Position numbers and translations under genes: made by a program. From Bacteroidota bacterium (GTDB lineage: Bacteria > Bacteroidota > Bacteroidia > Chitinophagales > LD1), in contig CANJZE010000005.1 in NCBI GenBank assembly GCA_947479455.1, positions 1 to 64,000 of the forward strand: a DNA stretch of 64,000 nucleotides, in the 5' to 3' direction. The notes under the pieces were generated by a model. The model saw nothing but the letters and a program-made list of their open reading frames with translations, had not been told where the DNA came from and did not search any database. Shown one piece after another: positions 12,815-47,465 of this stretch (its first letter is position 1; every line of letters begins with the position of its first letter).

Positions 12815-14857
12815 ATGAAACAGAAATCGAAAGAAAAACCTAAAGCTATACCCGCACAAAAAATTAAAACCAATTCGTGGTTTCAAAAGAATAAACTACT
12901 GGTTGGCTTATTGGTTATTGTAACGCTTGTTTTTGCCAACTCAATTCCCAATAAGTATGCATTGGATGATGAGTTTTTTACTACCAACAAAAACAAGTTG
13001 GTAGAGAGGGGAATAAAAGCTATTCCTAAAATTTTCACCAGTCGCACATTCACTACCAATGATGGTGAAGGTTATGAATATCGTCCTATCGTTGCTGTTT
13101 CCTTTGCCATTGAGCATCAAATTTTTGGTGCTAACCCGCATGTGAGTCACGCTATTAGTCTTTTGCTTTATCTTTTAATTGCAGTTCTGTTGTATCGGCT
13201 TTTGCAAAAATGGCTTGGCGGGGAAAACGAATGGCTAATCTTCTTCATTGCACTTCTGTTTTTAATTCATCCGTTGCGCACCGAGGTTGTGGACAATATT
13301 AAATCGCGCGATGAATTGTTGAGCATTTTAGGTTCACTGTCCTGTGTTTGGTTTGCGTTTCGTTTTTTTGAAACAGGTAAATGGTATTATGCGCTTATTT
13401 ATCCGATTTGTTTTCTATTGGGCGTTCTGTCGAAACATTCATCAGTAACCTACTTGGTTTTGGTGCCGCTTACACTCTATTTTTTCACTAAAGTCGATTA
13501 CAAAAAAATACTTCTGTCTGCTGTGCCGCTTCTGGCTGTTGTTGTTTTGGTTTCAGTTTTGCAACGTGCTACATTACCTCATGCAACTCGGCACATGCTC
13601 CTGCTCGAGAATCCTTTGGTTGGTATGAAAATGACATTGATCGAACGCACGGCCACGGCTTCGTATGTAATGGGAAGGTATTTGTGGTTACATATCGTTC
13701 CGCATCCTCTGGTTTACTATTATGGTTTTAAGTTTGTGCCTATCGTAAATTGGGCATCTGTTTTACCTATCGCTTCGCTGCTCATTCACCTGGCGCTATT
13801 CGCATATGCGCTTCTTAATTTTAAAAAGAAGGACCCCATTGCATTTGGTATTCTTTTCTACTTAATCAATATGGCTGCCTTTTCTAACCTGCTTAAACCC
13901 GCTCCGGGTTTAATGGCAGAACGCTTTACTTTTTCTGCTTCTATTGGTTTTGTCCTGGCGTTTTGCTTTTTGGTGTTTCGTTACTTTAAAATAGAACCTT
14001 CTGCATTTTCATGGAACAGCGATTCTAAAAAAGCGGGTTATGTGTTCAGCGGTGTAGCTTTTTTATTTGCATGTATCAGCATTTCGCGCAATGCAGATTG
14101 GAAAGATAAACTCACCCTTTACCAGCACGACATGCAATATCTTTCTGAATCTTCTAAAGGAAACATGATGTATGCCAATGCCACACTTACGTTGTTTCAT
14201 GAAAACACGAATCGCGCAGTTCAGTTTTCACAAGGCGGAAATACGATGCGCGATAGCGTTCGCTATTATGCGGGGGAAGCAAAAAGGAATTTAATGTTAG
14301 CGCAGGAACATTTTCGCGCGGCCACAGAAATTACACCCACTTATTCTATTGCCTTGATAAACCTGGGCTCAACTTATTACTTCCAAAACAAATTTGCCGA
14401 AGCACTGCATTACTCCCAGGAAGGTTTAAAATTAGATCCCGATTCAAAAGAAGGAGTATATAATTCAGCCATGGCATATAACAGTTTAGGCAAAAAAGAT
14501 TCTGCTGAAATGTTTTTTAAACGAGTGCTCGAAATAAATGCTGATGATGTGAATGCACACGACCAATTAGGAAAATGCACATTGGCAAAAGGGGATACAG
14601 CCACTGCTACTAAATACTATATGGATTGCATAAAGCTCAACCCAAAGGTGGAAAATGCCTATGTAAATGCCGCCCAATTTTTTTTAAGAATCAGAAACCA
14701 ACAAGGTGCGTTGCAGTACACCGAAATGGCCGCACAAATAAATCCACGCAATATCACGCGCATGAAAAACCTGGCTATCTATTATCAGCAACAAGGCAAT
14801 ACCCAAAAAGCGAATTACTATTTTCAGAAAATGAACGAAGCAGAGATGCGAAAATAG
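12815..14857 (+). CDS. TMTC-like GT-C membrane protein with TPR tail
   Basis: 680 residues. After a basic N-terminus there are about ten membrane segments up to about residue 430, then a C-terminal half made of TPR repeats (SIALINLGSTYYFQNKFAEA, GVYNSAMAYNSLGKKDSA, and further repeats). Before the second membrane segment are ALDDEFF and YEYRPIVAVSFAIEHQIFG, and a loop holds FLIHPLRTEVVDNIKSRDEL. These match the acidic, YRP and HPxxxE-R signatures of TMTC/GT-C protein O-mannosyltransferases. Such enzymes use a lipid-linked sugar on the outer face of the membrane. The acceptor is unknown; exported proteins are a reasonable guess. The gene at 45237 has the same layout. Confidence 0.8.
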   Translation: MKQKSKEKPKAIPAQKIKTNSWFQKNKLLVGLLVIVTLVFANSIPNKYALDDEFFTTNKNKLVERGIKAIPKIFTSRTFTTNDGEGYEYRPIVAVSFAIEHQIFGANPHVSHAISLLLYLLIAVLLYRLLQKWLGGENEWLIFFIALLFLIHPLRTEVVDNIKSRDELLSILGSLSCVWFAFRFFETGKWYYALIYPICFLLGVLSKHSSVTYLVLVPLTLYFFTKVDYKKILLSAVPLLAVVVLVSVLQRATLPHATRHMLLLENPLVGMKMTLIERTATASYVMGRYLWLHIVPHPLVYYYGFKFVPIVNWASVLPIASLLIHLALFAYALLNFKKKDPIAFGILFYLINMAAFSNLLKPAPGLMAERFTFSASIGFVLAFCFLVFRYFKIEPSAFSWNSDSKKAGYVFSGVAFLFACISISRNADWKDKLTLYQHDMQYLSESSKGNMMYANATLTLFHENTNRAVQFSQGGNTMRDSVRYYAGEAKRNLMLAQEHFRAATEITPTYSIALINLGSTYYFQNKFAEALHYSQEGLKLDPDSKEGVYNSAMAYNSLGKKDSAEMFFKRVLEINADDVNAHDQLGKCTLAKGDTATATKYYMDCIKLNPKVENAYVNAAQFFLRIRNQQGALQYTEMAAQINPRNITRMKNLAIYYQQQGNTQKANYYFQKMNEAEMRK

Positions 14858-15200
14858 TTTCAGCATTCAATCTAGTTGAAGATTACATTAGTTAAATCAA
14901 ATAGCTACACATTCAGGGTGGCGCTGTACGACACAAGTCCTGTTTTTTCAAATCTTATTGCTTTGATTGTTTCCATTCTAGGATGCGCTTATCGTTTGTT
15001 TTTTCTCGGCTCCTTAAGAAGCCGATGGTAACTAAAGGCAGTATTTTTTGTGACGTGTTGCATGGTCTCTTTCCTAACTGCGGAACGAGTTGAACAAAAG
15101 TGGGTCTATTATTCCGGTAATTGAATTGCTGTATTGTTGGGTGGTTAACACAGTAATGCAATTTACATCCGTTAAAACTGAAAAGGGAAGTTGAGAACCG
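14858..15200. other. Intergenic region, 343 bp, no gene seen
   Basis: Lies between two convergent genes. I see no ORF with a credible start or family match, no RNA gene fold, and no tandem array. A short inverted repeat TCGGCT/AGCCGA around 15006-15025 has no T-run, so I do not call it a terminator. Confidence 0.5.
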
Positions 15201-16310
15201 TTACATACTTTGTTCTAAACAGGCATTCAAATTATTCAATCCTGTTTTTAATTCTTCGAACACAGGATAACCGAAACCAATGCGCATGTAAATTTTGTTT
15301 TGTTCAAACCAATGACCGGGACCAACGATGGTCGAATATTGCGAATATAGTTTTTCGTAAAACATCTCTGTATCCATTTTATACTGCGCTTTCAATCGCG
15401 CAAAACAAACAACACCTGCTGTTGGCTCTACCCATTCTAAATATTTCTGTTGTGCAAACCATTGTTTGAAGTACGCAAAGTTGTTTCGTATGTGTTCATG
15501 ATTCTTTTCAAGAATTGTTTTTTTGTTATGCAGAAGATGAAAAGCAATTTCTTCATCCACCACCGAATTGCATAAACAGATTTGTTCTTTTACAGCTAAA
15601 AAATCGTGCATCAGTTTTTTATCGCGGCAAATCAACCAGCCGATACGAATGCCCGGAGCGCCAAACGATTTTGAAACCGAAGAAACAGAAATCACATTCG
15701 GTGAACGTTCTGCCACATAAGGTTTCAACGGTGTTTGGAAATTTAAATCGCGATAAGTTTCATCAACCAGCAAGCGGCAATTATTTTCTTCTGCCAGTTG
15801 AACTAGTTGCTGAATTATATTTTCATCAAACACTTTACCGGTAGGATTATGCGGATTGGTAATGCTAATGAGTTTTGTATTCGGCTGAATAGCTTTGCGA
15901 ATTTTATTTACATCCAAAGCAAACTCTTCTTCAAACTTTAAATCAATTATGCTTATAGCGCAATTGATTGCGCGTGGAGTTTCGAGATTGATTCCGTAAT
16001 TAGGACGAATAACTACTAAGTGGTCAGCGGGATTGAGTAAAGTAGTAGCCGCAATAAACAAAGCAGTTGCGGCACCCGAAGTTACGAGCACATCATCGGC
16101 AGAAAGAATTTTGCTTTTTTCTTTGATGGTTTCGCGCAGTTTAGGAATGCCTTTGTGCTCACCATAAAACAAAACCAAATTACTAAGGTCAATATTCAAA
16201 TCGCTGAGCCGAATATCACGCACTGAACTTTCAGCCAGATTGTATTGGATAGTGCTGTAGCCCATTTCTTCGGGCGATTCAATTTCAATGGGCATTCTTA
16301 CGTACTTCAT
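15201..16310 (-). CDS. PLP-dependent aminotransferase, fold type I (class I/II)
   Basis: 369 residues. It has the class I/II aminotransferase order: TSGAATALFIA (cofactor phosphate, about 78-88), RPNYGI with the stacking aromatic, ITNPHNPTGK (about 150-159), LVDETYRD with the Asp and Tyr, and VSSVSKSFGAPGIRIGW (about 208-224) with the Schiff-base Lys. The C-terminal Arg region is YMRIGFG. The amino-acid substrate cannot be read. It starts 9 bp after the GH1 gene on the same strand, so they form an operon. An ordinary aspartate- or aromatic-type role is possible, as is a place in a specialised pathway with the GH1 enzyme. Confidence 0.88.
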   Translation of the reverse strand: MKYVRMPIEIESPEEMGYSTIQYNLAESSVRDIRLSDLNIDLSNLVLFYGEHKGIPKLRETIKEKSKILSADDVLVTSGAATALFIAATTLLNPADHLVVIRPNYGINLETPRAINCAISIIDLKFEEEFALDVNKIRKAIQPNTKLISITNPHNPTGKVFDENIIQQLVQLAEENNCRLLVDETYRDLNFQTPLKPYVAERSPNVISVSSVSKSFGAPGIRIGWLICRDKKLMHDFLAVKEQICLCNSVVDEEIAFHLLHNKKTILEKNHEHIRNNFAYFKQWFAQQKYLEWVEPTAGVVCFARLKAQYKMDTEMFYEKLYSQYSTIVGPGHWFEQNKIYMRIGFGYPVFEELKTGLNNLNACLEQSM

Positions 16311-16319
16311 ATTTCAGTT

Positions 16320-17501
16320 TTATATTTCAATCTCCTTTTCATACGCCAGCTTTCTAAACACATCGGCACTTGGTCGCTTGGTTCGGTTCTTGGTTTCAAT
16401 ATTGGTTTCGTATAAACCAAAGCGAAAAGTAGGTCCAAGGTTCCATTCAAAATTATCGAAAGTGCTCCACCAAAAATAAGCGCGTATATCAATAGCTTTA
16501 TCTACACAATGGTGCACCACGTTTATGTAATCTTTCATGGCACTTACGCGCACTTTATCATCGGTGGTGCAAATTCCATTTTCGGTAATCATAATTGGCA
16601 AATGAAATTTGTTCCAGTAGCGTTCAATTACTTCGCCTAACCCTTGCGGATAATATTCCCACATATCGTCATGTGCTTTGCCATACTTCGCAAACTTTTC
16701 AGGCGTATCCATGTAATTAATAGGCAACGGGTCGTGCGACATTTTGCAGTAGTAACTCAAACCAAAGAAATCGAGTTTCTTCTCAAATGGTTTCAACGCG
16801 CGCTTCATAAACCACCAATCAGAAATTTTTGCAGGAAGAATGCCCAGCACATTTTCGTAAGCAAAAATAACGGTGTTGTGACTAATGCCCACAGGCTGCG
16901 TTGGAAACTTTGTATGGATATAATCATACACTTCTTCATGCGCTAAACCCAAATGGTCAATTACTTTAAGTGCTTTAAAAAGATTGGTTTTAAACGGAGG
17001 AAACTCGCCCATTAAATATGCACCGCTCACATATACATTGGGTTCGTTGAAAGTGTTCCACCAGGTTACGTACTCTCCAAACTCATCTACTACTTTCCTA
17101 CTAAAGTCAACCCACATGGTAATGTTTTCTTTTTTCTCCCAGTTACCTTTTGCCGCAAACCAAAGCGGGTTTGTAAAATGATGCAGCACCATCATAATCT
17201 TTACACCTCTTCCTTTCAAATCATCAAGGAAACTTCTGTATTCAGCAACAGTTTCCTGATTCAGCGCACCAAACGGTTCGCGCTGCAATTTGCTCCACAT
17301 TAAACTCATGCGATACGATGGCGCGCAGTACGAAATTATTTCGGCATCTTCTCTAAAGCGTTTTTCATGGTCGCAGGTGCGGTCAAACACATGGCCGTCT
17401 TTTGATTTTACACCCAGCCATTCATGCTCAAATGTTGTTTCAATTTGATAAGCGGCAGTAGATGTGCCGAAGGTAAATTCATTGGGGAAAGTGAGTTTCA
17501 T
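16320..17501 (-). CDS. Glycoside hydrolase family 1 protein
   Basis: 393 residues, shorter than the usual 440-480 of GH1. It begins with FPNEFTFGTSTAAYQIE (4-20), the family's first beta-strand. NTFNEPNVYVSGAY at about 158 contains the acid/base Glu, and IMITENGICT at about 306 contains the nucleophile Glu, so both catalytic residues are present. No signal peptide is seen, so it is cytoplasmic. GH1 enzymes hydrolyse beta-glucosides, beta-galactosides or lipid-linked sugars, and a few act as transglycosidases. It leads a two-gene operon with an aminotransferase. A nine-unit heptamer array abuts its start codon. Confidence 0.9.
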   Translation of the reverse strand: MKLTFPNEFTFGTSTAAYQIETTFEHEWLGVKSKDGHVFDRTCDHEKRFREDAEIISYCAPSYRMSLMWSKLQREPFGALNQETVAEYRSFLDDLKGRGVKIMMVLHHFTNPLWFAAKGNWEKKENITMWVDFSRKVVDEFGEYVTWWNTFNEPNVYVSGAYLMGEFPPFKTNLFKALKVIDHLGLAHEEVYDYIHTKFPTQPVGISHNTVIFAYENVLGILPAKISDWWFMKRALKPFEKKLDFFGLSYYCKMSHDPLPINYMDTPEKFAKYGKAHDDMWEYYPQGLGEVIERYWNKFHLPIMITENGICTTDDKVRVSAMKDYINVVHHCVDKAIDIRAYFWWSTFDNFEWNLGPTFRFGLYETNIETKNRTKRPSADVFRKLAYEKEIEI

Positions 17502-17502
17502 A

Positions 17503-17565
17503 AATTTAGATTTTAGACGATTGACGATTGACGATTAGCGATTGCAGATTAACGATTTTAGATGA
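17503..17565. repeat. Heptamer array, nine units (ACGATTG)
   Basis: Units run AATTTAG, ATTTTAG, ACGATTG, ACGATTG, ACGATTA, GCGATTG, CAGATTA, ACGATTT, TAGATGA with exact 7-bp period. It begins one base from the GH1 start codon and ends about 105 bp before the divergent M43 protease gene. This is one of the longest and clearest arrays in the window. Confidence 0.88.
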
Positions 17566-17669
17566 ACGAAGTAAACAGCAAATTGAATTTTCGCAACACG
17601 ATTTAGGAATATCCTGTTTACAACATTTTCATTCCACAATTACCCCATTTCTATTTATGTTCACGCCCC

Positions 17670-19817
17670 ATGAAAAATATAAAAACTCTTTTCGCTGTTT
17701 CAGCAATGCTTTTGTCAACTGCGTTTAGCAATGCTCAAACCAATCAATGGTGTACCAGTACCCAAAAGTTAGAAACAGAAATTAAGAACAATCCGCAAGC
17801 CCGTGCTCAGTTTGAAAACTATATGCACGATTTGCAACAACAAGACAACAGCCATGCCGGTTCCCGCGCTGCTAATACAATCTGGATACCAGTTGTTTTT
17901 CACATTGTGCACAATGGCGATGCCATAGGCAGTGGCGAAAACATATCCGATGCACAAGCTGCTTCGCAGTTAGAAGCCATGAATCTTAATTACAATGCAC
18001 TTGATCCATATCTTTCAAACGTACCTTCTGTATTTGCGCCCTTAGTAGGCACAGTGAATGTAAAATTTTGTTTAGCGAAGTTTGATGAAAGCGGTAATCC
18101 TACTTCGGGAATTATTCGTCATCAATTTGCCAATGTAAGTTGGGATACCGATGCCGATATTGACAACACGTTGAAACCCGCAACCATTTGGGACCACACT
18201 AAATACTTAAACATTTGGAGCGTGCGTATGGGTGGAACACTACTTTCAACCGGGGTGTTAGCTTATGCTACGCTACCTTTTTCCATGACCGCAACCGATG
18301 ATGGAATAGTGGCGCGGTATAACACTATTGGTACAACGGGCAGTTTAATTGGTGGCTATAACAAAGGAAAAACGGTAACGCACGAAGCCGGTCACTGGCT
18401 TGGTTTGTTGCACACTTGGGGGCTCGATGCCAGCTGTGGCGATTTTGGTGATTTTATAAACGACACTCCTGACCAGGCCGATTTGAATGCTTCGTGTCCA
18501 ACCTTTCCGCACATTTCTTGCAACAACGGGCCCAATGGCGATATGTATATGAACTACATGGACTACCCGCCCGATGTTTGCACCTACATGTTTTCGGTTG
18601 ACCAGGCAACACGTATGCTTAGTATACTCGATGGCAGCCGCGCTTCTATAAAGAACGCTGCTACACAATGTTTTTACTCACTTGATGCCTCGCTTGTGAA
18701 GTTAATTTTACCGGGCGATACAGTTTGCTCGCTAAATTTCAATCCGCTGGTTACCGTGCGCAACGAAGGAGCTACCCCTATTACTTCGGGCAAATTTTAT
18801 GTTCAGCTAGATGGTGGTGGAGCGCAAATTATAAACTGGAACGGCTACATTGAAACACAAACCGAAGTTCAAATAACACTACCCACGCAAACGGTGGTAA
18901 ACGGAACGCATTCGTTTGATATTTCTTTTCTGGATATCAATGGTACTTCGGGCGATAATTTTATTTCGAATAACAGCTTAAGTACAGTTTTATTTTATGC
19001 TTACGATGGGGGAGGAGCAGGGCAAACTCTTCCGTTCACCGAAGGCTTCGAAAATAATTTTCCTGCGGCTAACTGGGAAGTTTATAATCCTAACCACGAC
19101 ATTACCTGGGTGCAGAATTCTGGAGCAAGCGGTTATGGTGCTAGTTCAAAGTGTGCCAGCATCAACAATTTTGGTTACTCAGGTTTACAAAACTTTACCC
19201 GAAAAGATGCTTTGATTACAGAGGCATTTGATTTTACAACAGTGGCAAAACCCGAATTGAAATTTGATTTGGCTTACGCGCAGTTTAGTAACACCCGCAC
19301 CGATTCGTTGAATGTGTATTACAGTTTAAACTGCGGAAGCAGTTGGGTAAAAGTTTTTGGGCAACGCGGCAATCAATTGGCTACCGCACCCGACCAAGGC
19401 ACTTCTTTTGTGCCTTCCTCTACCCAATGGAAAACAGTTTCTATTCCTCTGCTGTTTGCCAGCGGTCAACCCAAGGTGTCGTTCAAATTTGAAAACGCTA
19501 CCAATTGGGGCAACGTTATGTATCTGGACAACATCAACCTTCAAAACAATCCTGCATTGGAGGTTACTGAAATAGTAAAAAACGAGGTAAAAATATTTCC
19601 TAATCCTGCTTCAAATTTAGTGGCGGTTCGTTTACCGTTGAACCATTTGTTTAAAACCATTGAAGTGTTCAACAACCTTGGTGAGTTAATGTATGAAACT
19701 GCGTTAAACGATAACGCGGTAATTTTTTCGGTGCAAAATTATAGCAGCGGACTATATTTCATTCACTTAAAAGGCGAAGCTGTTTCACAAGTAGAGAAGG
19801 TGTTGGTGAGTCATTAA
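17670..19817 (+). CDS. Secreted M43-type zinc metalloprotease with T9SS sorting domain
   Basis: 715 residues. The signal peptide ends near FSNAQ (about 22). The protease domain contains HEAGHWLGLLH at about 237-247 (HExxHxxGxxH zinc site) and MNYMDY at about 291 as the Met-turn, as in pappalysin/M43 cytophagalysins. A choice-of-anchor-like beta domain spans about 450-620 (FTEGFENNFPAANWEVYN). The last 80 residues (KIFPNPASNLVAVRL to EKVLVSH) are a type A T9SS sorting domain. The enzyme should be exported through the T9SS and anchored or released outside. It stands alone between divergent and convergent neighbours. PorX, encoded in this window, regulates T9SS expression in related bacteria. 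Confidence 0.93.
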   Translation: MKNIKTLFAVSAMLLSTAFSNAQTNQWCTSTQKLETEIKNNPQARAQFENYMHDLQQQDNSHAGSRAANTIWIPVVFHIVHNGDAIGSGENISDAQAASQLEAMNLNYNALDPYLSNVPSVFAPLVGTVNVKFCLAKFDESGNPTSGIIRHQFANVSWDTDADIDNTLKPATIWDHTKYLNIWSVRMGGTLLSTGVLAYATLPFSMTATDDGIVARYNTIGTTGSLIGGYNKGKTVTHEAGHWLGLLHTWGLDASCGDFGDFINDTPDQADLNASCPTFPHISCNNGPNGDMYMNYMDYPPDVCTYMFSVDQATRMLSILDGSRASIKNAATQCFYSLDASLVKLILPGDTVCSLNFNPLVTVRNEGATPITSGKFYVQLDGGGAQIINWNGYIETQTEVQITLPTQTVVNGTHSFDISFLDINGTSGDNFISNNSLSTVLFYAYDGGGAGQTLPFTEGFENNFPAANWEVYNPNHDITWVQNSGASGYGASSKCASINNFGYSGLQNFTRKDALITEAFDFTTVAKPELKFDLAYAQFSNTRTDSLNVYYSLNCGSSWVKVFGQRGNQLATAPDQGTSFVPSSTQWKTVSIPLLFASGQPKVSFKFENATNWGNVMYLDNINLQNNPALEVTEIVKNEVKIFPNPASNLVAVRLPLNHLFKTIEVFNNLGELMYETALNDNAVIFSVQNYSSGLYFIHLKGEAVSQVEKVLVSH

Positions 19818-19821
19818 AAAA

Positions 19822-19850
19822 CAAAAAAGGCATTCCGCTTGGAATGCCTC
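19822..19850 (-). terminator. Intrinsic terminator of the FN3 gene
   Basis: GGCATTCC at 19829-19836 pairs with GGAATGCC at 19841-19848 across a GCTT loop. On the minus strand the stem is followed by TTTTTTGTTTTTT. The plus side has only CTCTTC. It should serve the minus-strand FN3 gene and may also block transcription from the M43 gene. Confidence 0.75.
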
Positions 19851-19873
19851 TTCAGGAATTGTAGTTCCGCTTT

Positions 19874-20518: not shown

Positions 20519-20700
20519 TTTGTTTGTAATTAATTGTTTAGTTAAAAAATAAATTTCTGAATTCCTTTTCGCGAAAAGAATGTTGCTGATAAAAACAGAG
20601 GCGTGTTTTTGTTTTTTTTATCGCCTTGTTTTTAAAAGCAAAATCGTTTGAAAAAACTAAATACTGTTTCACCACAATTTGTTTTTTTTCATTTACTATA

Positions 20701-20793
20701 AATACTAACCAATTTGCCAATGGAGTTTACAACTACAATTTTGTAGTTGATGGAAAACCGGTTAAGAGAGACAAGTTTATAGTGCTGAAATAA
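20701..20793 (+). pseudogene. Fragment of a T9SS type A sorting domain
   Basis: An open frame in the spacer reads FANGVYNYNFVVDG, then KPVKRDKFIVLK and a stop at 20791. This is how type A sorting domains end (NGVYxYxxxxDGK..xxKxxVxK). Upstream the frame becomes low-complexity Phe/Lys codons with no sorting-domain sequence and no plausible start, so only the last 25 or so residues remain. A strong hairpin terminator follows 15 bp after the stop, as expected for a genuine gene end. I read it as the relic of a deleted cargo gene. Confidence 0.55.
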
Positions 20794-20807
20794 AACCGTA
20801 AATTGCG

Positions 20808-20840
20808 GGAGGACTACTACGTAGTAGTCCTCCTGTTTTT
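20808..20840 (+). terminator. Perfect 26-bp palindrome with T-run, just before a start codon
   Basis: GGAGGACTACTAC at 20808-20820 is followed immediately by its exact complement at 20821-20833, then TGTTTTT. It has the form of a strong rho-independent terminator, likely left from the eroded gene upstream. It ends three bases before the ATG at 20844, so any transcript for that gene starting upstream must pass through it. Confidence 0.75.
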
Positions 20841-38346: not shown

Positions 38347-41300
38347 TTATTCACCGGTCTTCACAAATCTCTTCACCAATTTAGTTTTGTCGTTCTGTAA
38401 ACTCAGGAAATAAATTCCTGACGAAAACGAAGATAAATCAAAAGTAGTCGATTGGTGCGCAGCCAAAGCAGTAAAACTTTGGGTGCTTATCGTTTCGCCT
38501 AGAACATTTTGAACCGAAAGATTGTATTGTTTCCCAATCACAATATGCATTTGCACATTCAAAAAATCCTTTGCGGGGTTTGGTTGAAGTGATAGTGCTT
38601 CAACTACACGTAAATCAGTAAGGCCGGTTGTATTTATTGTGACAGTTTGTGTAACGGTATCAGAACAGTTTCCATTGCTTTGAACTAATTCAACGGTATA
38701 CGTTCCATCACTTGAATACGTGTGGGTCGGGTTTTGTTGAGTAGATGCATTTCCATCGCCAAATGTCCAGTTGTAAGTAGTGGCAGTAGTAACACTTGGA
38801 GTAAAATCAACTGTTGTATTGTTTACGGTTGAAGTAAATGTTCCGTTGTTAGAAATTACATCTACCACAACAGGCGTGCGTGCTGTAACACACGGAGCCG
38901 GTTGAATGCGCCAGTTGTAGAAAAAATAGAAGCGAGCTAAATCTGGTACGTCATTACTCGTAATGGTAATAGTTCCATCGTTGGAAGTATAAGGATATGT
39001 GGCCCCTGAACTATTACGATACAAATTCTCTGTACCGGTCCATATACCCAAACGCAAACCGTTTTGAGCAGGTAAATTAAAATTGAGTGGCACGGTTTGT
39101 AAACCGTTAGCTAAATTAAGCGTGGTAGTGGCTAACACATTATTACTTGCATCGCGCAGTTCAATCGTTCTATTGCCCGCAGCTCCAGCATCAACATCTA
39201 CGCTTAACAAAACTTGAGGCACCGTGTTATTGAATACTTGGTAATGCGGATAGGTATTGTATCCACCTGCACCAAAATTATGATTGGCGGGTCCTGCATT
39301 TATTTGTGGTGATTGAATCTGAGATTCGGCATAATAAGTGGTATTAGAGTTTAAAACCGGTGTAGTGAAGTTATTCCCGTTTCCAATTGGTGCGCCCCCG
39401 TTTTGCCCGATATACCAATTAATATTTCCCGTAGAGCTTGCATTTAGAGTAGTCGATTGTCCAGCACAAATCGAAACTCCATTAGCAATTGGCGATAGAT
39501 TACTGATAGTAATTACTTGAGACTTTACTACTGTATCAGTTCCACAACCCGGGCTTGAGGCAATTAACGAAACAGTAAAAGTTCCGTACTGATAATAGGT
39601 GTGCGAAGGAGTAGCAGAAAAACTTCCGTTACCATCACCAAAATCCCAATAGTAAGTGGTAGCGTTGGTGCTGGTGTTATTAAAAGAAATAATGGTTGGT
39701 GCGGTACATGAAGTAGTAGTAGCAGGAGCAAAATCGGCATTTACGCTAGCCGAAAAAGCGGCTCCTACGCCCACCGCATACCAAGCGTTTGTGGTAGAAA
39801 TTACTTCCGGTGAACAGGGTCCGTATAAATCTTCTGCGGCAATAATTGAATACGTTCTTGCATCGGCATATTGAGCACTGCTTGTTAAATAATTGGTAAG
39901 GGAACGATAGGCTATTGCCTGCGCTTTCTCTATGGTTATTCCTGTTACGTTATAGGTTTGTCCATTATCGTTTGTTCCACTTTTACCACGTGCCAGTAGA
40001 TAGAACCAAAAATTTTGAACACCGCTATTGGTGTGCACGCCACCGTTATCCTGTGTTCCGGTGTACCAGTTTGTTCCACCGTAAGTATCGGGTTGTTGAT
40101 AAGCATTTGGATTTGCCATAGAACGAAATGCTGGACCATTATTTACTCCTATTCTCCATTCTATACTGGTAGGTGCCGCTTGATAAACGTGTTGACGAAT
40201 GGAAACACCCATGCAATCACTAAACGATTCATTCAAAGCACCACTTTCATCTTGATAATCGAGATTGGCAGTATACTGAGTAAGACCATGCGTTATCTCA
40301 TGACCACCAATATCAAGTGTGGTGTATGGTCTTGTTCCAAAGGTTGAACCTCCATCGCCATAATACATGGACTGTCCATCCCAAAAAGCATTATCAAGAT
40401 TTGAATCATAGTGAACGTAGGCAATCAACTGCACACCATTATCATCTAAACTGTTTCTGCCAAAAAGAACGTTGTAAAAGTCATAAGTTGATTCGCTGGC
40501 AAAATGCCCGTCAGTAGCATATTGATCTTTTGCCGCATTTACGTTGTTCCAGGTGGTAGAAGCGTTGGTAAAATCTGTATTGCCCGGATTAGTAGATGTC
40601 AATGCATTGTAGGTAATTATGCCATTTCCTCTGCCTGCTTCACGAAGCCGATAAGAGCCATTATAGCTATCGGTAGTAATTGTTTTACTGCCGCTGTATT
40701 GTGTAGTAGCTGTAGCAGGAACATCGGCATGTTCAATTCTGTTTTTGGTTAAAAGAATTTTTCCGGTGGTGGCATCTACAAAAACATAATTGCGCGAAAG
40801 CGGTTCAGCAGCATAGATATCGAATTTGTAGGCGAGGTAGAATTTTGTTGCACCCAATTTGTTATTCTCTCCCAAGTAAACCAACGTTGCCTTCGGAAAA
40901 TAAGTAGCCGATGCATTTCCTGTATTTTCTTTCAGCGCATTTTCAACAGCCGTAATTTCCCACTTGTATTTTAATGCATCAATACTTTGCAAGGCAAAAT
41001 TTAGGGCAGAAGATTCATTGACGGAAACCGAAGTAGGACCAGGAATGTTGTTGAGCAACTGACCATTCATACTTTGAATAAGACCCATCTTGGTGTGTAG
41101 AATAAACATCGTGTTTTCTACCGGAACGCCATTTACCGTTTGTTGTAGCCGGTAGTGCACAAATCCGAGTTTATCTTTTTCGGTAGAAAGAAGTTTAAAC
41201 CCGTTTCCTGAGGGAAGTTGATAGTGTTTCGAAATCCACTCATGAAAATTTCCGTAAGCAAGAAAAGCTCCTTCCTTAAAACGTACGTAATCGGGAATGG

Positions 41301-41442
41301 TTGAAAATTTGCCTGGAATAACAACTTCGCTGTTGGGAACCAAACGCGAGGCAGCCTCTCCGGTTATCATAGAGCCAAGCGAAAACAAATTGCAACTAAC
41401 GAAAGCAAGCAAAAAGAACAGAACGGAACAACGCTTTTTCAT
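38347..41442 (-). CDS. Secreted M4 (thermolysin-like) metalloprotease with PKD and T9SS domains
   Basis: 1031 residues. A signal peptide is followed by an FTP/PepSY-type propeptide (about 50-230). The M4 catalytic domain has GGHEITHGLTQYTANL at about 376-391 (HEITH zinc site), the third ligand in ESGALNESFSD at about 398, and the catalytic His region NGGVHTNSGVQNFWFY at about 464. Two PKD domains (YYWDFGDGNGSFSATPSHTY at about 613, YNWTFGDGNASTQQNPTHTY at about 894) flank an Ig-like and a beta domain. The end (LSLQPNPAKDFLNVQM to KRFVKTGE) is a type A sorting domain. It would be exported by T9SS and matured by loss of the propeptide. Confidence 0.95.
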   Translation of the reverse strand: MKKRCSVLFFLLAFVSCNLFSLGSMITGEAASRLVPNSEVVIPGKFSTIPDYVRFKEGAFLAYGNFHEWISKHYQLPSGNGFKLLSTEKDKLGFVHYRLQQTVNGVPVENTMFILHTKMGLIQSMNGQLLNNIPGPTSVSVNESSALNFALQSIDALKYKWEITAVENALKENTGNASATYFPKATLVYLGENNKLGATKFYLAYKFDIYAAEPLSRNYVFVDATTGKILLTKNRIEHADVPATATTQYSGSKTITTDSYNGSYRLREAGRGNGIITYNALTSTNPGNTDFTNASTTWNNVNAAKDQYATDGHFASESTYDFYNVLFGRNSLDDNGVQLIAYVHYDSNLDNAFWDGQSMYYGDGGSTFGTRPYTTLDIGGHEITHGLTQYTANLDYQDESGALNESFSDCMGVSIRQHVYQAAPTSIEWRIGVNNGPAFRSMANPNAYQQPDTYGGTNWYTGTQDNGGVHTNSGVQNFWFYLLARGKSGTNDNGQTYNVTGITIEKAQAIAYRSLTNYLTSSAQYADARTYSIIAAEDLYGPCSPEVISTTNAWYAVGVGAAFSASVNADFAPATTTSCTAPTIISFNNTSTNATTYYWDFGDGNGSFSATPSHTYYQYGTFTVSLIASSPGCGTDTVVKSQVITISNLSPIANGVSICAGQSTTLNASSTGNINWYIGQNGGAPIGNGNNFTTPVLNSNTTYYAESQIQSPQINAGPANHNFGAGGYNTYPHYQVFNNTVPQVLLSVDVDAGAAGNRTIELRDASNNVLATTTLNLANGLQTVPLNFNLPAQNGLRLGIWTGTENLYRNSSGATYPYTSNDGTITITSNDVPDLARFYFFYNWRIQPAPCVTARTPVVVDVISNNGTFTSTVNNTTVDFTPSVTTATTYNWTFGDGNASTQQNPTHTYSSDGTYTVELVQSNGNCSDTVTQTVTINTTGLTDLRVVEALSLQPNPAKDFLNVQMHIVIGKQYNLSVQNVLGETISTQSFTALAAHQSTTFDLSSFSSGIYFLSLQNDKTKLVKRFVKTGE

Positions 41443-41639
41443 ACGATAAATTTAGTGTGAGTGTGAATATAAATTATTCGCCTGCTTGGCAATAATTACA
41501 ATGCACGAAAAACGCAGAAAAAGCTAGATGCAGCTAACCCAATTATTGTTTTCAAATAAGACGGAGAAAACAGGGGTTTTTTACGGTTCCTGTAAGAATT
41601 TATATCAAAACTTTTTGCTCGGGGCAATCAACGCTTCGT

Positions 41640-43196
41640 TTACTTCTTACTTAACTTTATTACAGGAATAAGCATTTCCTCAAGTGATATACCACCGTGC
41701 TGAAAACTATTTTTGTAGAAATTTACAAAGTGGTTATAGTTGTTGGGATACACAAGATACTTATCCTCCTTGGCAAAAATATAAGTGGAACTCAAACGCG
41801 ATTTAGGCAATCCGATTTCCTCAGGAACTTTTGCTGCAAACACATCCTTGTCATCGTAGTTTAAATTTTTTCCTGTTTTGTAACGAATGTTAGTGGTAGT
41901 TTCTCTATCACCAATGCATCGTGAAGGATCTTGAACCCGTACGGTACCGTGGTCTGTAGTGAGTAAAATGTTTACGTCCTTTTCGCTTAATTTTTTTAGT
42001 GCATTTAGTAGTGGTGAGTGTTCGAACCAAGAAACGGCCACGGAGCGATATGCTGCCTCATCACTGGCGAGTTCTTTTAGTACCTCCATTTCGGTACGTG
42101 CGTGTGAAAGCATATCCACAAAATTGTAAACAATAACCGTTAGCTTGTTTCCGAGGTAATTCGTGATATTATTTTCAAGCAATTCACCATCGCGGTGATT
42201 GGTAATTTTTACATACTTGTGCTTGATTGGTTCGTGTAAAGTGCGTTTCAAAAAATCTTCAAGAAATTCCGATTCATGTAAATTCTTTCCGCCTTCATCG
42301 TCATCACTTACCCATTTATCCTCAAAACGTTTTTGAATTTCCAAGGGCATCATTCCGGCAAACATGGCGTTTCGCGCATATTGTGTGGCTGTAGGAAGTA
42401 TGGCGCAGAAAATATCTTCATCATCTACTTTAAAATTTTCCATTACCAAAGGTTGAATGGCTTTCCACTGGTCGTAACGCAGGTTGTCAATCAAAATCAT
42501 AAACGTTGGCTTGTCGTCACGAAGCATGGGTAACAATTTTTGTTTTAGAACATTGTGACTCATCACCGGTGTATCTAGCCCCGGTTCTGAATTTACCCAG
42601 CGTTTATAATTCTTAATCACAAATTTGTTGAACTCTCGATTAGCTTCTTCTTTTTGAGCGTTGTAAACTTCTACCATGCTACTGTCGCTCTTGTTCAATT
42701 CAATTTCCCAATACACCAGTTTCTTATAAAGTTCAACCCACTGTTTGTAGTCGAGGTTGTCCTGCATGGTCATAAACAGTTTCTGAAATTCCTGCTGATA
42801 ATCGGATGTAGTTTTTTCGCTCACGAGCCGTTCATTGTCAATTATTTTTTTGAGTGTGGAAAGTATTTGCTGCGGTTTTACCGGTTTAATCAGGTAGTCG
42901 GCAATTTGCGAACCTATGGCATCTTCCATTAAGTTCTCTTCTTCATTTTTAGTAATCATTACGCAAGGCAAGTGCTGATTTATTTCTTTGATACGCTGCA
43001 ATGTTTCTAATCCGGTAAGCCCAGGCATGCTTTCATCCAAAAACACTACGTCAATTCCTTTTTTAGCGACTCGGTCAATAGCATCGGTACCGTTGGTAAC
43101 AGGAATAACTTTGTAGCCTTTGTTTTCTAAAAACAGAATGCTTGGTTTCAACAAATCAATTTCATCATCGGCCCACAGAATGGTAATTGGGTTCAT
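41640..43196 (-). CDS. porX: PorX, T9SS response regulator with PglZ domain
   Basis: 518 residues. Residues 1-120 form a receiver domain: acidic pair at 10-12, phospho-acceptor D54 in VVFLDESMPG, T82 in MITKN and K104 in YLIKPVKP. The rest is an alkaline-phosphatase-superfamily PglZ domain: FMILIDNLRYDQW (about 230) with the first metal ligands, LLTTDHGTVRVQD (about 417), and a C-terminal HGGISLEEMLIPVI. PorX regulates T9SS gene expression with the kinase PorY and the sigma factor SigP in Porphyromonas, and the PglZ domain cleaves oligonucleotides in studied homologues. PorY is not in the window, but five T9SS cargo genes are. Confidence 0.95.
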   Translation of the reverse strand: MNPITILWADDEIDLLKPSILFLENKGYKVIPVTNGTDAIDRVAKKGIDVVFLDESMPGLTGLETLQRIKEINQHLPCVMITKNEEENLMEDAIGSQIADYLIKPVKPQQILSTLKKIIDNERLVSEKTTSDYQQEFQKLFMTMQDNLDYKQWVELYKKLVYWEIELNKSDSSMVEVYNAQKEEANREFNKFVIKNYKRWVNSEPGLDTPVMSHNVLKQKLLPMLRDDKPTFMILIDNLRYDQWKAIQPLVMENFKVDDEDIFCAILPTATQYARNAMFAGMMPLEIQKRFEDKWVSDDDEGGKNLHESEFLEDFLKRTLHEPIKHKYVKITNHRDGELLENNITNYLGNKLTVIVYNFVDMLSHARTEMEVLKELASDEAAYRSVAVSWFEHSPLLNALKKLSEKDVNILLTTDHGTVRVQDPSRCIGDRETTTNIRYKTGKNLNYDDKDVFAAKVPEEIGLPKSRLSSTYIFAKEDKYLVYPNNYNHFVNFYKNSFQHGGISLEEMLIPVIKLSKK

Positions 43197-43400
43197 AGCA
43201 GTATTTTTAAATTTTTATTGAACGAAAATTTTACAGAGATATAAAGCGGCAAGCAGTTTTTTATTGTGTGTATCGCTTGTTAAGAAGATGTAATAATAAG
43301 CAACAAGAAATTATAAAAGGAAAATTAGTAGGCTTAACCCTTGCATAAACTACTCGAGGTATGAAACAAAAAGCTAGCCGAGGTGGTTGAAGAATTGTTT

Positions 43401-44447
43401 TTACTCTCCTAAGAACTTCTTCAACACAAAATAAAGTGCGGCCCCCATGGTAGCAGAAACAGGAATAGTAAGCACCCATGCCCAAATAATATTGAAGGTA
43501 ACTCCCCAACGCACAGCCGAAATACGTTTAGTTAAACCAACGCCCATGATAGAGCCGGTGATTGTGTGTGTGGTGGAAACCGGAATACCTAATCTTTCGG
43601 TAGCGAATAAAGTAATTGCGCCAGCTGTTTCTGCAGCTACACCTTCAAAAGAAGTGAGTTTGGTAATTTTACTACCCATGGTTTTTACAATGCGCCAGCC
43701 GCCCATTAACGTACCCAAACCTATTGCACTGTAACATGCCAGCACTATCCAATGCGGAATGTCTTTGATTTTCCCGTCAACTTCAATCACGTGCATCCAA
43801 GCTGGAATATGATTAGGATCCATTCCTGATTTAGAAACATATACCATCATAGTAGCCGATATAATTCCCATTACTTTTTGAGCATCGTTTCCCCCGTGTC
43901 CTATGCTGAACATGGCACTACTCACTAATTGTAATTTCTTAAACCATCCATCCATTTTAAACGGATTCGATTTTCGGCATGCCCAAAGCAGCAGAATTGA
44001 AATCAAATAGGAAAGTATTAATCCAATAAGCGGTGCTAAAACAATAAACGAAAGTGTCTTTGTGACCTTATCCAGGTTCACCACTCCAAAACCGGCATGT
44101 GCTACTGCAGCCCCTGCAAAACCTCCCATGAGGGTATGTGACGAACTGGAAGGAATACCGGCATACCAGGTAATCAAATTCCAAATAATAGCTGCTATTA
44201 AACCTGCAAGTATTACGGTAAGCGTTATAGATTCGGGTTTTACAGTTTTAGCTACGGTATCGGCCACTTTAAAATCTGAAATCCAATAGGCTACTACATT
44301 GAAAAATGCCGCCCAAATAACCGCCTGAAAAGGAGTAAGCACTCGTGTAGATACAATAGTAGCTATGGAATTTGCCGAATCGTGAAATCCGTTAATAAAA
44401 TCAAAGACTAGCGCTGCGATAATAATGACAACTAAAAGCTCGAACAT
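43401..44447 (-). CDS. Inorganic phosphate transporter, PiT family
   Basis: 348 residues with about ten membrane segments. Both halves carry the PiT signature: FDFINGFHDSANSIATIVSTR at the N-terminus (core GFHDSANS at about 20-27) and SIGHGGNDAQKVMGII at about 176-191. GIPVSTTHTITGSIMGVG (about 290-307) is also conserved. It imports phosphate, often as a metal-phosphate complex, with protons or sodium. The DUF47 gene lies directly upstream on the same strand with a 66-bp spacer holding a heptamer array; the pairing is standard for low-affinity phosphate uptake. Confidence 0.95.
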   Translation of the reverse strand: MFELLVVIIIAALVFDFINGFHDSANSIATIVSTRVLTPFQAVIWAAFFNVVAYWISDFKVADTVAKTVKPESITLTVILAGLIAAIIWNLITWYAGIPSSSSHTLMGGFAGAAVAHAGFGVVNLDKVTKTLSFIVLAPLIGLILSYLISILLLWACRKSNPFKMDGWFKKLQLVSSAMFSIGHGGNDAQKVMGIISATMMVYVSKSGMDPNHIPAWMHVIEVDGKIKDIPHWIVLACYSAIGLGTLMGGWRIVKTMGSKITKLTSFEGVAAETAGAITLFATERLGIPVSTTHTITGSIMGVGLTKRISAVRWGVTFNIIWAWVLTIPVSATMGAALYFVLKKFLGE

Positions 44448-44460
44448 GAATTTGGATTTA

Positions 44461-44510
44461 AGATTGAAGATTGAAGATTGTATTCAATCCCAATTTTCAT
44501 TTTTCAATTT
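44461..44510. repeat. Mirrored heptamer arrays between DUF47 and pit
   Basis: AGATTGA, AGATTGA, AGATTGT (44461-44481) is followed by TTCAATC, CCAATTT, TCATTTT, TCAATTT (44483-44510). The right half resembles the reverse complement of the left, so the spacer can fold back. It fills almost all of the gap between the DUF47 stop and the pit ATG. Confidence 0.75.
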
Positions 44511-44513
44511 TAA

Positions 44514-45158
44514 TTAAGAGTTCTTCACTATAATGGTTTCTATCACATTGGCCACATCTTCGCATTTGTCAGTAGCGGTTTCCATGTTCGAAAGAATTTC
44601 TTTCAGCTTAATAATTTTGATAGCGTCTTTTTCGTTGTCAAACAAATCGGCTATAGCAGTATCAAAAACATCATCGGCATGGTTCTCTAAACTATTAATG
44701 CGCACAATGGCTTCGCGCACTCGTACAATATTGCTCATGTCTTTCATGTTCGAAACCGCTACATGAATTTCCTTTGCTGAATGCTCTATAATCTCTGCCA
44801 GTTTTTTCATGGCAGGGGTTGGTTCTCCCACTTTATAGGTTTCAAAACGTTTTGCTGAACCGTGTATATAATCAACAATATCATCGAGCGATGAAGCCAG
44901 ATAGGAAATATCTTCTCGGTCAAACGGTGTAATAAAGTTGGTACTTAGTTCTGTAAAAATTTGATGTGTAAGGTCATCACCAACGTGTTCCAAGTCAGCA
45001 ATTTTTTTCTGAAACTCCTGCTGCTTATCTAAAGGAGCGTTCATCATTTCGCTGAACACTTTCGAAATTTCAACCAGATTGTTGGATGCCTCTGAAAACA
45101 GTTTAAAGAAATTTTTGTCTTTAGGAACAAGAAAAGAGAAGATTTTGCCAATTGCCAT
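44514..45158 (-). CDS. DUF47/PhoU-like Pit accessory protein
   Basis: 214 residues, all helical, of the DUF47 (PhoU-related) family. Conserved parts are the N-terminal FFKLFSEASNNLVEI (about 17-31), IADLEHVGDDLTHQIFTEL (about 49-67), FITPFDREDISYLASSLDD (about 73-91) and the C-terminal NMETATDKCEDVANVIETI (about 191-209). These proteins are cytoplasmic partners that regulate the adjacent PiT carrier. It precedes pit on the same strand and is probably co-transcribed. Confidence 0.93.
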   Translation of the reverse strand: MAIGKIFSFLVPKDKNFFKLFSEASNNLVEISKVFSEMMNAPLDKQQEFQKKIADLEHVGDDLTHQIFTELSTNFITPFDREDISYLASSLDDIVDYIHGSAKRFETYKVGEPTPAMKKLAEIIEHSAKEIHVAVSNMKDMSNIVRVREAIVRINSLENHADDVFDTAIADLFDNEKDAIKIIKLKEILSNMETATDKCEDVANVIETIIVKNS

Positions 45159-45236
45159 AGTAATATGTATTTTTTAAGATGAAGCGAATGTATAATCGCA
45201 ATATTAAGCCAATGTTAAGTTTGATAAAGTTGGAAA

Positions 45237-47465
45237 CTAATTCCCTGTAGCCTTTTCAGCTACCGCTTTGTTGTTCTTCAACAGTTCATTAGCAGGTGCA
45301 AGTTTCAAACCTTTGTTACAGGCATCAATTGCTTTGTCGTATTGGTTCAGTTGGTTATAAGCCGAGCAGATGTTGTTCCAAGCTAAAAAACTGTTTGGGT
45401 CATATTTTAAAATCATTTTTGAAGCGGCAATACATTTTTCAAATTCGCCATGCACATAATAGTTGTAGCTGATATTGATGTAATAGCTGGCATCGACAGT
45501 GAAGGATTGTTTGGCTTTGAGCGTTTCGGCAAAATTATTTTTGAGCAAGGTAAAATTAGGGTCAGTCTTTAACCCTTTGGTGGCGTACGCAATGGCTTCG
45601 TCAAACATTTTGAGTTCATTGAGTGAGGCAACAATATTATTGACCACCAATAAATTTTTAGGAGCTAAGACGTTGGCCTTTTTGAATTCCAAAATAGCGG
45701 CATTGTAATTTTTTTGACCGTAGTAACTCATCCCTGCATTGAACGCTTGATTAAAAGGGTCGACCTTATTGTTTTGTGTAATGGCAGCAGAATTGTTTTC
45801 AGCGGTATTCTGTCTTAAACGCAGGTTCTTGACCACCGCACAAACTGGCGCGCTGTCTACCCTGACTTCATACACGGTGCCTTTAGGTGGCCAGTGGTAA
45901 ACAATATCCGGAGCAAACTTACCACTCGAAGGCAACTCAATAAAGTAATCCCAATCGGCCGAGTTTTCTTCGGCAAGTACATGCTTAAACCGTTTACTGC
46001 TATCGGCAAAATAACTGAGCTTCGATTGCTCACCATACCACATGCGCACGCGCCCTTTGTTTTCTTCGGTGAAAGAGGAATCGTTTTTTTCTATCCAATT
46101 AAATGCAGAACGAATAGAGTATCCCCAGTAATCCATTTCGTAATTTTTGAAAGCGGCTTTAGTGCCGCCTATTAGCGGATTGAAATACAAACCCTGCAAC
46201 GGATGATTGTTTATGGTGAATAAAACCGGTTCTGAAAGAATAATTACAAAAGCCGCCACTACAGAAAACTTCAGATAAACATCCTTGACTGCTTTAAAAA
46301 TTTCTGCCCATGCCAAAGCGGAAAGAACAATCATCGAAGGAATTACAAACGTGATATGCCTTGCGCTGTTGTAAATACTAGAATGATTAAGAATGATGGA
46401 AAGAAGCGGAAACGCTACAGAGAACAACAACAAACCATAAGCAGTTATCTGCCAGTTTTGTTTTCGAATAAACTTCGGAAGAAGAATTAGGAAAAGCACA
46501 AAGCCCGAAATGACAGTTACCGGAGTAGTGATGTAAATCCATTTAGGTACAAAATACCAAGGCAAATTTTTGTTGGTAATCCATTTGCCTTCAAAAAGTT
46601 CACTGATAATAAATGTGTCGAAGTTTTTGAAAACCGAAAGCGATCGAAGTGGGTTGAGCAATGGATTTTGCATAGCCCATGGCCAAAACAAAGATGTGCC
46701 CAAATAACCGGCAATAGAAATGAGAAAAACAACTGCTAAAGGTTTAATGAAACTCTTCGGCTCTGCTTCACCATAAAAAAACTGAAGCGTAAAATAAAAA
46801 ACAACGAAAGCCAGAAAATAAAAAATGAGAATCACCGCTCCAGAGCGCACTGAAATAGCAAATGCAAAACTAAGGGCGAGCAATACTGCGCGCACAATTC
46901 GAATGCGCGGTAGTTCTTTAATAAACGAAATCATTTGCAAAAGACTGAAAGCAAAAAATGTGGCGAGTGGAATGTCCTTCGGGTTGTTTAAAGAATAACC
47001 AAACAGGCGCGGAGTGAATGTGGCAATAACAAGCGTGAGCAGTGATATGCTCCAGCTTTCGGAAATGCGCTGGGCAATGAGCGCGGTAAAAATAAAAAGC
47101 AGCGCACCGAAGAAAGCTGACAGCGCATGCTTGGTTTCGAAGGCATCGTAGTTTTTACAGATGGTTTGATGAAGAACTTCCGCCAAAAAATCGAAGAAGC
47201 CGCCATAAATGTTTATTGCAGTTTTGCTTGCAGTTCCTTCTGTAAAATATTTCCATTGACCTTTTTCATCAAACGGAGATTCGATTACTGTTTTGTCGCC
47301 TTTGGTATAGTAGTCGTAAAGTTTTTTGCCGTGCTCGCGATGCTGTGGCTCATCTTCGGTTATGCCTGCGTCTTTACTTAGATAAGGCAAGGTGAACGAA
47401 ATAACAAAAGCAGAAACGATGAAAAGAAGTTTGGCAGGATTGCTGAAATCGAAATTCAATTTCAT
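45237..47465 (-). CDS. GT39/PMT-like glycosyltransferase with TPR tail
   Basis: 742 residues. About ten membrane segments lie between residues 10 and 415. Between the first and second is GITEDEPQHREHGKKLYDYY (about 34-53), whose acidic pair matches the catalytic DE of GT-C enzymes of the PMT/ArnT class. FTPRLFGYSLNNPKDIPLA at about 156 is another GT39-like loop. A soluble beta-rich part follows (about 430-560), then TPR repeats (NAGMSYYGQKNYNAAILEFK, about 577-596) to the end. The likely donor is a polyprenyl-phosphate sugar and the acceptor a protein or glycan outside the membrane. The domain order matches that of the gene at 12815, though the GT-C parts are from different subfamilies. Confidence 0.82.
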   Translation of the reverse strand: MKLNFDFSNPAKLLFIVSAFVISFTLPYLSKDAGITEDEPQHREHGKKLYDYYTKGDKTVIESPFDEKGQWKYFTEGTASKTAINIYGGFFDFLAEVLHQTICKNYDAFETKHALSAFFGALLFIFTALIAQRISESWSISLLTLVIATFTPRLFGYSLNNPKDIPLATFFAFSLLQMISFIKELPRIRIVRAVLLALSFAFAISVRSGAVILIFYFLAFVVFYFTLQFFYGEAEPKSFIKPLAVVFLISIAGYLGTSLFWPWAMQNPLLNPLRSLSVFKNFDTFIISELFEGKWITNKNLPWYFVPKWIYITTPVTVISGFVLFLILLPKFIRKQNWQITAYGLLLFSVAFPLLSIILNHSSIYNSARHITFVIPSMIVLSALAWAEIFKAVKDVYLKFSVVAAFVIILSEPVLFTINNHPLQGLYFNPLIGGTKAAFKNYEMDYWGYSIRSAFNWIEKNDSSFTEENKGRVRMWYGEQSKLSYFADSSKRFKHVLAEENSADWDYFIELPSSGKFAPDIVYHWPPKGTVYEVRVDSAPVCAVVKNLRLRQNTAENNSAAITQNNKVDPFNQAFNAGMSYYGQKNYNAAILEFKKANVLAPKNLLVVNNIVASLNELKMFDEAIAYATKGLKTDPNFTLLKNNFAETLKAKQSFTVDASYYINISYNYYVHGEFEKCIAASKMILKYDPNSFLAWNNICSAYNQLNQYDKAIDACNKGLKLAPANELLKNNKAVAEKATGN

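Follow-up and report, generated by a model that had tools for sequence, protein, structure and literature searches.

What might two membrane proteins with C-terminal tetratricopeptide repeats (TPRs), encoded in a single stretch of a Bacteroidota genome, glycosylate? The window analyzed here spans 64,000 nt from a Bacteroidota bacterium of the order Chitinophagales, family LD1 (assembly GCA_947479455.1, contig CANJZE010000005.1, positions 1-64,000). A preliminary description of this window had assigned the two proteins, hereafter P0001 and P0002, to the GT-C glycosyltransferases, likening the first to the animal TMTC proteins and the second to the protein O-mannosyltransferases of family GT39 (PMT), and had proposed that they may carry out the O-glycosylation of exported proteins known from Bacteroidota, the TPRs selecting the substrate, possibly cargo of the type IX secretion system (T9SS). 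Our results partly support this view: a role as periplasmic enzymes is supported for both families, whereas a role as the general Bacteroidota system is not. The genes and their parts are as follows (TM, transmembrane segment).

12815..14857, + strand: P0001, family A, predicted TMTC-like GT-C transferase with C-terminal TPRs, 680 aa (open frame, Pfam, conserved residues)
12815..14086, + strand: P0001 membrane core, residues 1-424, about 11 TM, N-terminus predicted inside (hydropathy, positive-inside rule; the TM5/TM6 split is our reading)
12965..12970, + strand: P0001 D51-D52, first periplasmic loop, TMTC motif M1, predicted catalytic (36/36 members; motif according to PMC7801869)
14249..14854, + strand: P0001 predicted periplasmic helical/TPR region, residues 479-680 (Pfam TPR from about residue 493)
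45237..47465, - strand: P0002, family B, predicted PMT-like GT-C transferase with C-terminal TPRs, 742 aa (gene call, Pfam, conserved residues)
46212..47465, - strand: P0002 membrane core, residues 1-418, 11 TM, N-terminus predicted inside (hydropathy, charge)
47349..47354, - strand: P0002 D38-E39, first periplasmic loop, predicted catalytic (D38 31/31; position 39 is E in 18 and D in 13)
45786..46211, - strand: P0002 conserved, predicted periplasmic stretch between TM11 and the TPRs, residues 419-560 (Y427, F428, G433, G434 and D445, each 31/31)
45249..45758, - strand: P0002 TPR region, residues 570-739 (Pfam; helices in a low-confidence model)

That both genes encode membrane proteins with TPR tails was confirmed: each is an open frame with about 11 TM, and the Pfam TPR matches lie far above chance (TPR_17, E 9.8e-15 in P0001; TPR_2, E 3.1e-13 in P0002). 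The gene of P0002 exists at the position originally given, on the minus strand, which the preliminary description had not mentioned. Its count of two such genes was an understatement, since the genome holds five members of family A (on contigs C5, C6 and C16, and two on C2), one further distant A-like protein on C3, and two members of family B (C5 and C16). Scanned at full length against Pfam, P0001 returns TPRs without a GT-C model, and P0002 returns TPRs with a weak PMT match (E 0.0055). Alignment of the A core with the B core by hhalign gave a probability of only 13%, and the two are therefore treated as distinct families. Conserved columns were counted per family in alignments of 36 A and 31 B proteins, the 35 and 30 relatives being the best-scoring loci plus the own-genome paralogues, a sample that is not random. 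The closest named relatives of P0001 come from Bacteroidota metagenome-assembled genomes (MAGs), with 86% (L014) and 80% (L015) identity. Two family A paralogues, L017:5950-8763 and L018:5774-8641, have frames of 938 and 956 aa with about 300 extra residues within the membrane core, the region concerned measuring 346 and 357 residues versus 50 in P0001.

Family-averaged hydropathy reveals 11 membrane peaks for family B and 10 for family A, one of which was split into TM5 and TM6 to give 11. With loop bounds that we set from these peaks, lysine and arginine are denser in the inside than in the outside loops, at 0.246 versus 0.086 per residue in family A (inside higher in 34 of 34 members, L017 and L018 being omitted) and 0.212 versus 0.092 in family B (31 of 31). 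The N-terminus is therefore predicted to lie inside and the C-terminus outside, so that both the putative catalytic first loop and the TPR tail would face the periplasm. The same topology is argued for the animal TMTCs in PMC7801869. We infer a GT-C fold for both cores.

In family A, ten columns are invariant in all 36 proteins (D51, D52, R90, P91, H112, E157, P296, R425, W429 and L435), and K207 and R370 are each kept in 35. PMC7801869, which had already noted TMTC homologues among prokaryotes, gives seven sequence motifs for the TMTCs, and the residues DD, R90-P91, E157, K207 and R370 of family A agree with motifs M1, M2, M4 and M7. The DD pair of M1, in the first loop (EL1), is present in 36/36. 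The YRP part of M2 (SHKSYRP) is kept (Y in 35, R in 36 and P in 36 of 36), and the SHKS part is absent, P0001 reading EGYEYRP. At M3 (RxD), R165 occurs in 32/36, and 34 sequences have E as the third residue, with D in one. M4 (KE(T/Q)xxT) is replaced by KHSSVT in P0001, with K in 35/36 and E in 26/36 across the family, and M5 (DW, in our placement) by YY, with D in 25/36 and Y at the W position in 35/36. The TMTC spacing (17 and 14 residues before E369) puts the prolines of M6 (PxxP, TM9) at N352 and A355 of P0001, positions at which proline occurs in one and four of the 36. At M7 (ERxxY), E is found in 32 and D in 4, R in 35 of 36, and the last position is F in 26 and Y in 9. In the distant paralogue on C3, KET and DW are both intact, but DH replaces the E/D-R of the other members. 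When core alignments (33 A and 31 B rows) were matched to Pfam profiles with a cut-off of E≤0.01, TMTC_DUF1736 (PF08409) matched 19/33 A cores and PMT_2 matched 13/33. The TMTC-like layout originally described for P0001 thus holds as a resemblance. Since the motifs are kept only in part and no protein of the own genome exceeds the PF08409 cut-off (P0001 reaches 16.7 bits, with a cut-off of 27), we do not classify P0001 as a TMTC; the resemblance suggests that it may work like one without formal membership.

The likeness of P0002 to GT39/PMT is likewise borne out as a resemblance, PMT_2 matching 22/31 and PMT 17/31 of the B cores. When five B relatives were scanned singly, PMT_2 and/or PMT scored above the cut-off in L055, L056 and L058, and below it in L064 and L021. 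Invariant columns in family B (31/31) include D38, Y87, N161, K163, D164, R207, W261, P262, P302, Y365, R369 and D445, and position 39 is always acidic, giving D(E/D) in EL1. The predicted catalytic acidic residues, whose absence the preliminary description would have taken as refuting its assignment, are thus present in both families (D51-D52 in 36/36 of A, D38 in 31/31 of B with E or D next to it).

The strongest functional clue is the link of family B with GT2 glycosyltransferases. An N-terminal extension of 245-311 residues is found in 15 of the 30 B relatives, and all 15 extensions match Glycos_transf_2 (PF00535). Searched against the PDB, the GT2 profile matches chondroitin synthase (9e-27), sll0501 (2e-21), an undecaprenyl-phosphate formamido-arabinose transferase (2e-20) and an archaeal dolichol-phosphate-mannose synthase (2e-16), followed by GT2s of other kinds; we take sll0501 to be GtrB and the formamido-arabinose transferase to be ArnC. 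The motif DTQCGFKLY, common to the fused GT2s, presumably recalls the ALG5/DPM1 group. The same arrangement also occurs split: in L127 and L139 (two of the nine unfused B contexts among the 20 compared), a stand-alone GT2 that is 44-53% identical to three fused ones lies directly upstream of an unfused B gene, and the gene at this position in L132 is a GT2 of a different subtype. In the own genome neither B protein is fused to a GT2, and the nearest DTQCG-type GT2 examined, at C1:71627, shows 33% identity. Given the topology of B, the fused GT2 would lie in the cytoplasm, on the side of the nucleotide sugars, and the catalytic loop and TPRs would be periplasmic. The GT2 fused to or adjoining B is plausibly a polyprenyl-phosphate-sugar synthase, a reading that we adopt because of the GT-C partner as much as the GT2 itself, and the probable donor is a polyprenyl-phosphate sugar. 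A further B protein, L140:8179-10959, carries an N-terminal extension that by eye resembles a degenerate GT2 in which the DDGS and DxD motifs are missing.

On balance, we lean toward a model in which A and B are inner-membrane GT-C glycosyltransferases that act periplasmically, with a polyprenyl-phosphate donor and a TPR-positioned acceptor, likely an exported protein. A cytoplasmic GT2 synthase would make a polyprenyl-phosphate-linked sugar, not necessarily mannose, which would then be flipped to serve as the donor. The first periplasmic loop of A or B would bear the catalytic acid or acids, and the periplasmic C-terminal TPR solenoid would position, and in that sense select, the acceptor, for which an exported protein from some narrow class is the likeliest candidate.

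Several observations weigh against this model. Profile searches of the PDB with the A and B cores matched no solved GT-C structure, and both cores are poorly modeled by AlphaFold, with a mean pLDDT of 40 for P0002 alone and 46 for P0001 and two relatives; the best-modeled part of P0001 begins at about residue 560. The P0001 core alone has no Pfam match at E≤0.01, and the protein lacks both residues modeled as metal ligands in TMTCs. The P0002 core matches PMT only, at 17.5 bits versus a cut-off of 22.7, and no GT2 gene occurs within two genes of P0002 in the window. In 7/9 unfused B contexts, no GT2 of the fused type adjoins. The best PDB match of the fused GT2, chondroitin synthase, is not a polyprenyl-phosphate enzyme, and no NCBIfam cut-off was reached by the 3 of 15 fused GT2s scanned. 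Finally, two A paralogues sit in what by eye appear to be glycan clusters, which would suit a glycan acceptor equally well.

GtrS and ArnT use polyprenyl-phosphate sugars on surface glycan or lipid, and A and B may likewise decorate such molecules rather than proteins, their TPRs organizing a glycan-assembly complex; we regard this alternative as a real possibility, although short of probable. In its favor, GtrB and ArnC are among the proteins matched by the GT2 that accompanies B. One A paralogue (C2:233797, L018) lies among GT2 genes and, judged by eye, GT4-like and sugar-kinase-like genes, and the paralogue on C16 is surrounded by genes that, also by eye, are glycosyltransferase-like and nucleotide-sugar-dehydrogenase-like. 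A GT2 gene of any subtype is found within three genes in 4/20 A and 5/20 B contexts, for which no background was computed. However, only 3 of the 95 immediate A neighbors match Glycos_transf_2, so that glycan loci are not the rule. In addition, TMTC1-4, the animal enzymes that O-mannosylate proteins, have TPR tails as their hallmark, PMC11292533 reports such tails for TMEM260 as well, and a TMEM260-like gene adjoins B in 3/20 contexts. Owing to these TPR tails, the TMEM260-like neighborhood and the many A paralogues, a protein acceptor appears to have a modest advantage over a glycan.

A less likely alternative concerns the P0001 clade, which might consist of degenerate, scaffold-like relatives without transferase activity. 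The E of M4 and the D of M5 are modeled as metal ligands in PMC7801869. Both are kept in 25 of the 36 A sequences and both are lost in 10, while one sequence retains the E but not the D. The 10 sequences that lack both, P0001 among them, group in a single clade (support 0.964), which points to one event, the mark of a subfamily, rather than ten independent losses. This clade nevertheless keeps D51, D52, R90, P91, E157, R165, K207 and R370 in 10/10 and Y89 in 9/10, and the close relatives of P0001 retain 80-86% identity. A loss of activity thus seems highly improbable.

The distribution of the two families bears on the most general proposal, that P0001 and P0002 carry out the O-glycosylation of the phylum. 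According to PMC12871550, almost every family of the phylum shows enrichment of the motif of this system, D[S/T] followed by a hydrophobic residue, although some species do not, and the transferase is undiscovered. In seven secreted proteins of the window (e.g. 17670-19817 and 38347-41442), D[S/T][AILVMT] occurs 45 times versus 18.4 in shuffles (2.4 times; reached by 0 of 1000), with 22 versus 18.2 expected for the reversed motif; in 11 cytoplasmic proteins it occurs 9 times versus 10.5 expected. Elsewhere in the genome, in twenty stretches of 20 kb, the counts are 180 versus 88.2 (reversed, 101 versus 88.8) in 73 proteins classed as signal-peptide-like by a home-made rule, and 110 versus 88.3 (reversed, 106 versus 88.2) in 124 cytoplasmic-like proteins. 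The excess in secreted proteins indicates that the source organism bears the D[S/T] glycosylation signature.

Both families are restricted in lineage. In a survey of 198 Bacteroidota genomes with completeness of at least 90%, in which at most 7-8 candidates from each genome were scored, A cores were detected in at least 33 and B cores in at least 7. Within the own order, A cores were found in 97/119 genomes and B cores in at least 57/119, B being counted as core matches with E<1e-20 among at most nine scored candidates per genome. Five genomes of this order in which neither A nor B cores were detected still show motif enrichment, by 2.75, 1.53, 2.47, 2.06 and 1.93 times (G020, G034, G070, G081 and G095, respectively), with 1.50, 0.84, 1.19, 0.71 and 0.86 times for the reversed motif and 1.39, 1.22, 0.80, 1.27 and 0.99 times in cytoplasmic-like proteins; the controls of G020 are themselves raised, and the effect is smallest in G034. 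In these five genomes all candidates were scored for A, and for B all in G020, G034 and G081 and 7 of 8 in G070 and G095. Weak matches to full-length P0001 do occur there (best E 9e-5 to 6.7e-8), which we take for TPR matches, their positions not being listed. Since the signature is kept in genomes without detected cores, A and B are apparently not required for the D[S/T] system. The best explanation is that they form an accessory system distinct from the phylum-wide O-glycosylation, and the proposal that P0001 and P0002 carry out the latter, although their host bears its signature, can be set aside almost entirely in view of the patchy distribution of the cores and the persistence of the signature in their absence. 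Cargo of the T9SS as substrate finds no support either: Por_Secre_tail is matched by 2/95 A and 4/85 B neighbors (no background was computed), and no obvious link appears among the first 25 neighbor families listed for each.

The distribution that argues against these two plausible candidates points to one testable gene instead, the TMEM260-like family PF11028. It is found above the cut-off in 197/198 genomes of the phylum survey, including the own genome and all five genomes of the motif test, and in 1/14 control genomes (Bacteroides ihuae). Among the contexts compared, TMEM260-like genes occur only beside B, in 3 of its 20 contexts (3/85 B neighbors), on the same strand and just downstream, as listed here with the own-genome copy.

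L127:8148-14452, same strand: B, then TMEM260-like; a stand-alone GT2 also precedes
L132:8962-14554, same strand: B, then TMEM260-like, with a 94-codon open reading frame in the gap
L140:8179-14090, same strand: B, then TMEM260-like
C2:69197 = L176:9017-12472, + strand: own-genome TMEM260-like gene (PF11028), frame of 1152 aa

About 0.04 such neighbors would be expected in 80 places, a rough estimate for a gene present once or twice in each genome; of the three genomes concerned, two belong to one family (f21). The first loop of the TMEM260-like proteins carries W-D-x-G-E in 14/14, of which the 13 fetched (one per locus, 13 loci) had been selected with a pattern of which DCGE or PPGAP is a part. 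TPR matches are below the cut-off in two of the four proteins scanned and absent from the other two. The C-terminal part of the L127 protein contains a LysM domain, consistent with a location in the periplasm. PF11028 has no match in P0001, P0002 or their core alignments. From its distribution, family and neighborhood, we infer that the TMEM260-like protein is a better candidate than A or B for the missing transferase of the phylum. Among the papers listed by searches of the open-licence literature in PubMed Central (PMC), none was found to name PF11028 in this role. Near the GT2, B and TMEM260-like genes of L127, a YfhO-family membrane protein is encoded at L127:15987-18911 (PF09586, barely above the cut-off).

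Conceivably, although we would not yet expect it, a single bacterium has counterparts of all three animal O-mannosylation families: the TMEM260-like protein would add the first hexose at D[S/T], GT2-B would supply or extend the sugar, and the expanded TMTC-like set would glycosylate special classes of protein. Of these three counterparts, the PMT-like and TMTC-like proteins have clear TPR tails, predicted to be periplasmic, and the TMEM260-like protein has a large C-terminal part.

The surroundings of the two genes were also inspected. Upstream of P0001, at 8603-11154 (- strand) and 11244-12722 (+ strand), lie a pair of AlgJ-like and MBOAT/AlgI-like genes, recognized by eye, then an NfeD-like gene (by eye) and FloA (Pfam). 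Among 49 stretches compared, five P0001 neighbors, these among them, recur only in L014, L015 and L141; L014 and L141 (G115) appear to be the same MAG, which suggests that the recurrence is hardly independent. Three genes from P0002, at 41640-43196 (- strand), is a response regulator with a C-terminal PglZ-like domain that by eye resembles the T9SS regulator PorX. Viral contigs gave no match to family B and one match of 22% to family A. A plasmid search with P0001 as the only query returned 13 records, all within query residues 477-680, and a phage search with P0002 as the only query returned none. In the open-licence PMC literature, none of the titles listed dealt with GT39-TPR or GT2-GT-C fusions in Bacteroidota or with GT117/GT105 in Bacteroidota glycosylation, and no paper was found for 'DUF2723'.

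If correct, the GT2-GT-C-TPR chain of family B would unite sugar activation, transfer and acceptor docking within one protein, and the model would bear on the origin of the animal TMTC and TMEM260 O-mannosyltransferases. In the two-gene systems GtrB/GtrS and ArnC/ArnT, a GT2 making a polyprenyl-phosphate sugar similarly works with a GT-C enzyme, whereas in family B the GT2, the GT-C-like core and the TPRs can share one polypeptide. The PMTs (GT39, including bacterial ones) share with family B the D(E/D) of the first loop, and their profiles match the B cores; family B differs in its C-terminal TPRs and in the N-terminal GT2 of half of its relatives, and no MIR model is among the Pfam matches of P0002. 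According to PMC11292533, TMTC1-4 constitute GT105 and TMEM260, the third animal O-mannosyltransferase family, constitutes GT117, and their TPRs are proposed to recruit immunoglobulin-like domains. TMEM260 and PF11028 resemble our families in that the first loop is acidic and the C-terminal part is large, but form a separate Pfam family that is nearly universal in the phylum. The closest parallel to family A is provided by TMTC1-4, O-mannosyltransferases of the animal endoplasmic reticulum that act on cadherin-like domains. Both combine a core of 11 TM with TPRs on the catalytic side, as predicted for family A by hydropathy and charge, and both show the first-loop motifs DD and YRP, the K of EL3 and the ER of EL5. 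Compared to the TMTCs, the Glu of KE(T/Q) is His in P0001, the Asp and the Trp of DW are both Tyr and the Tyr of ERxxY is Phe, and the match of P0001 to DUF1736 is weak.

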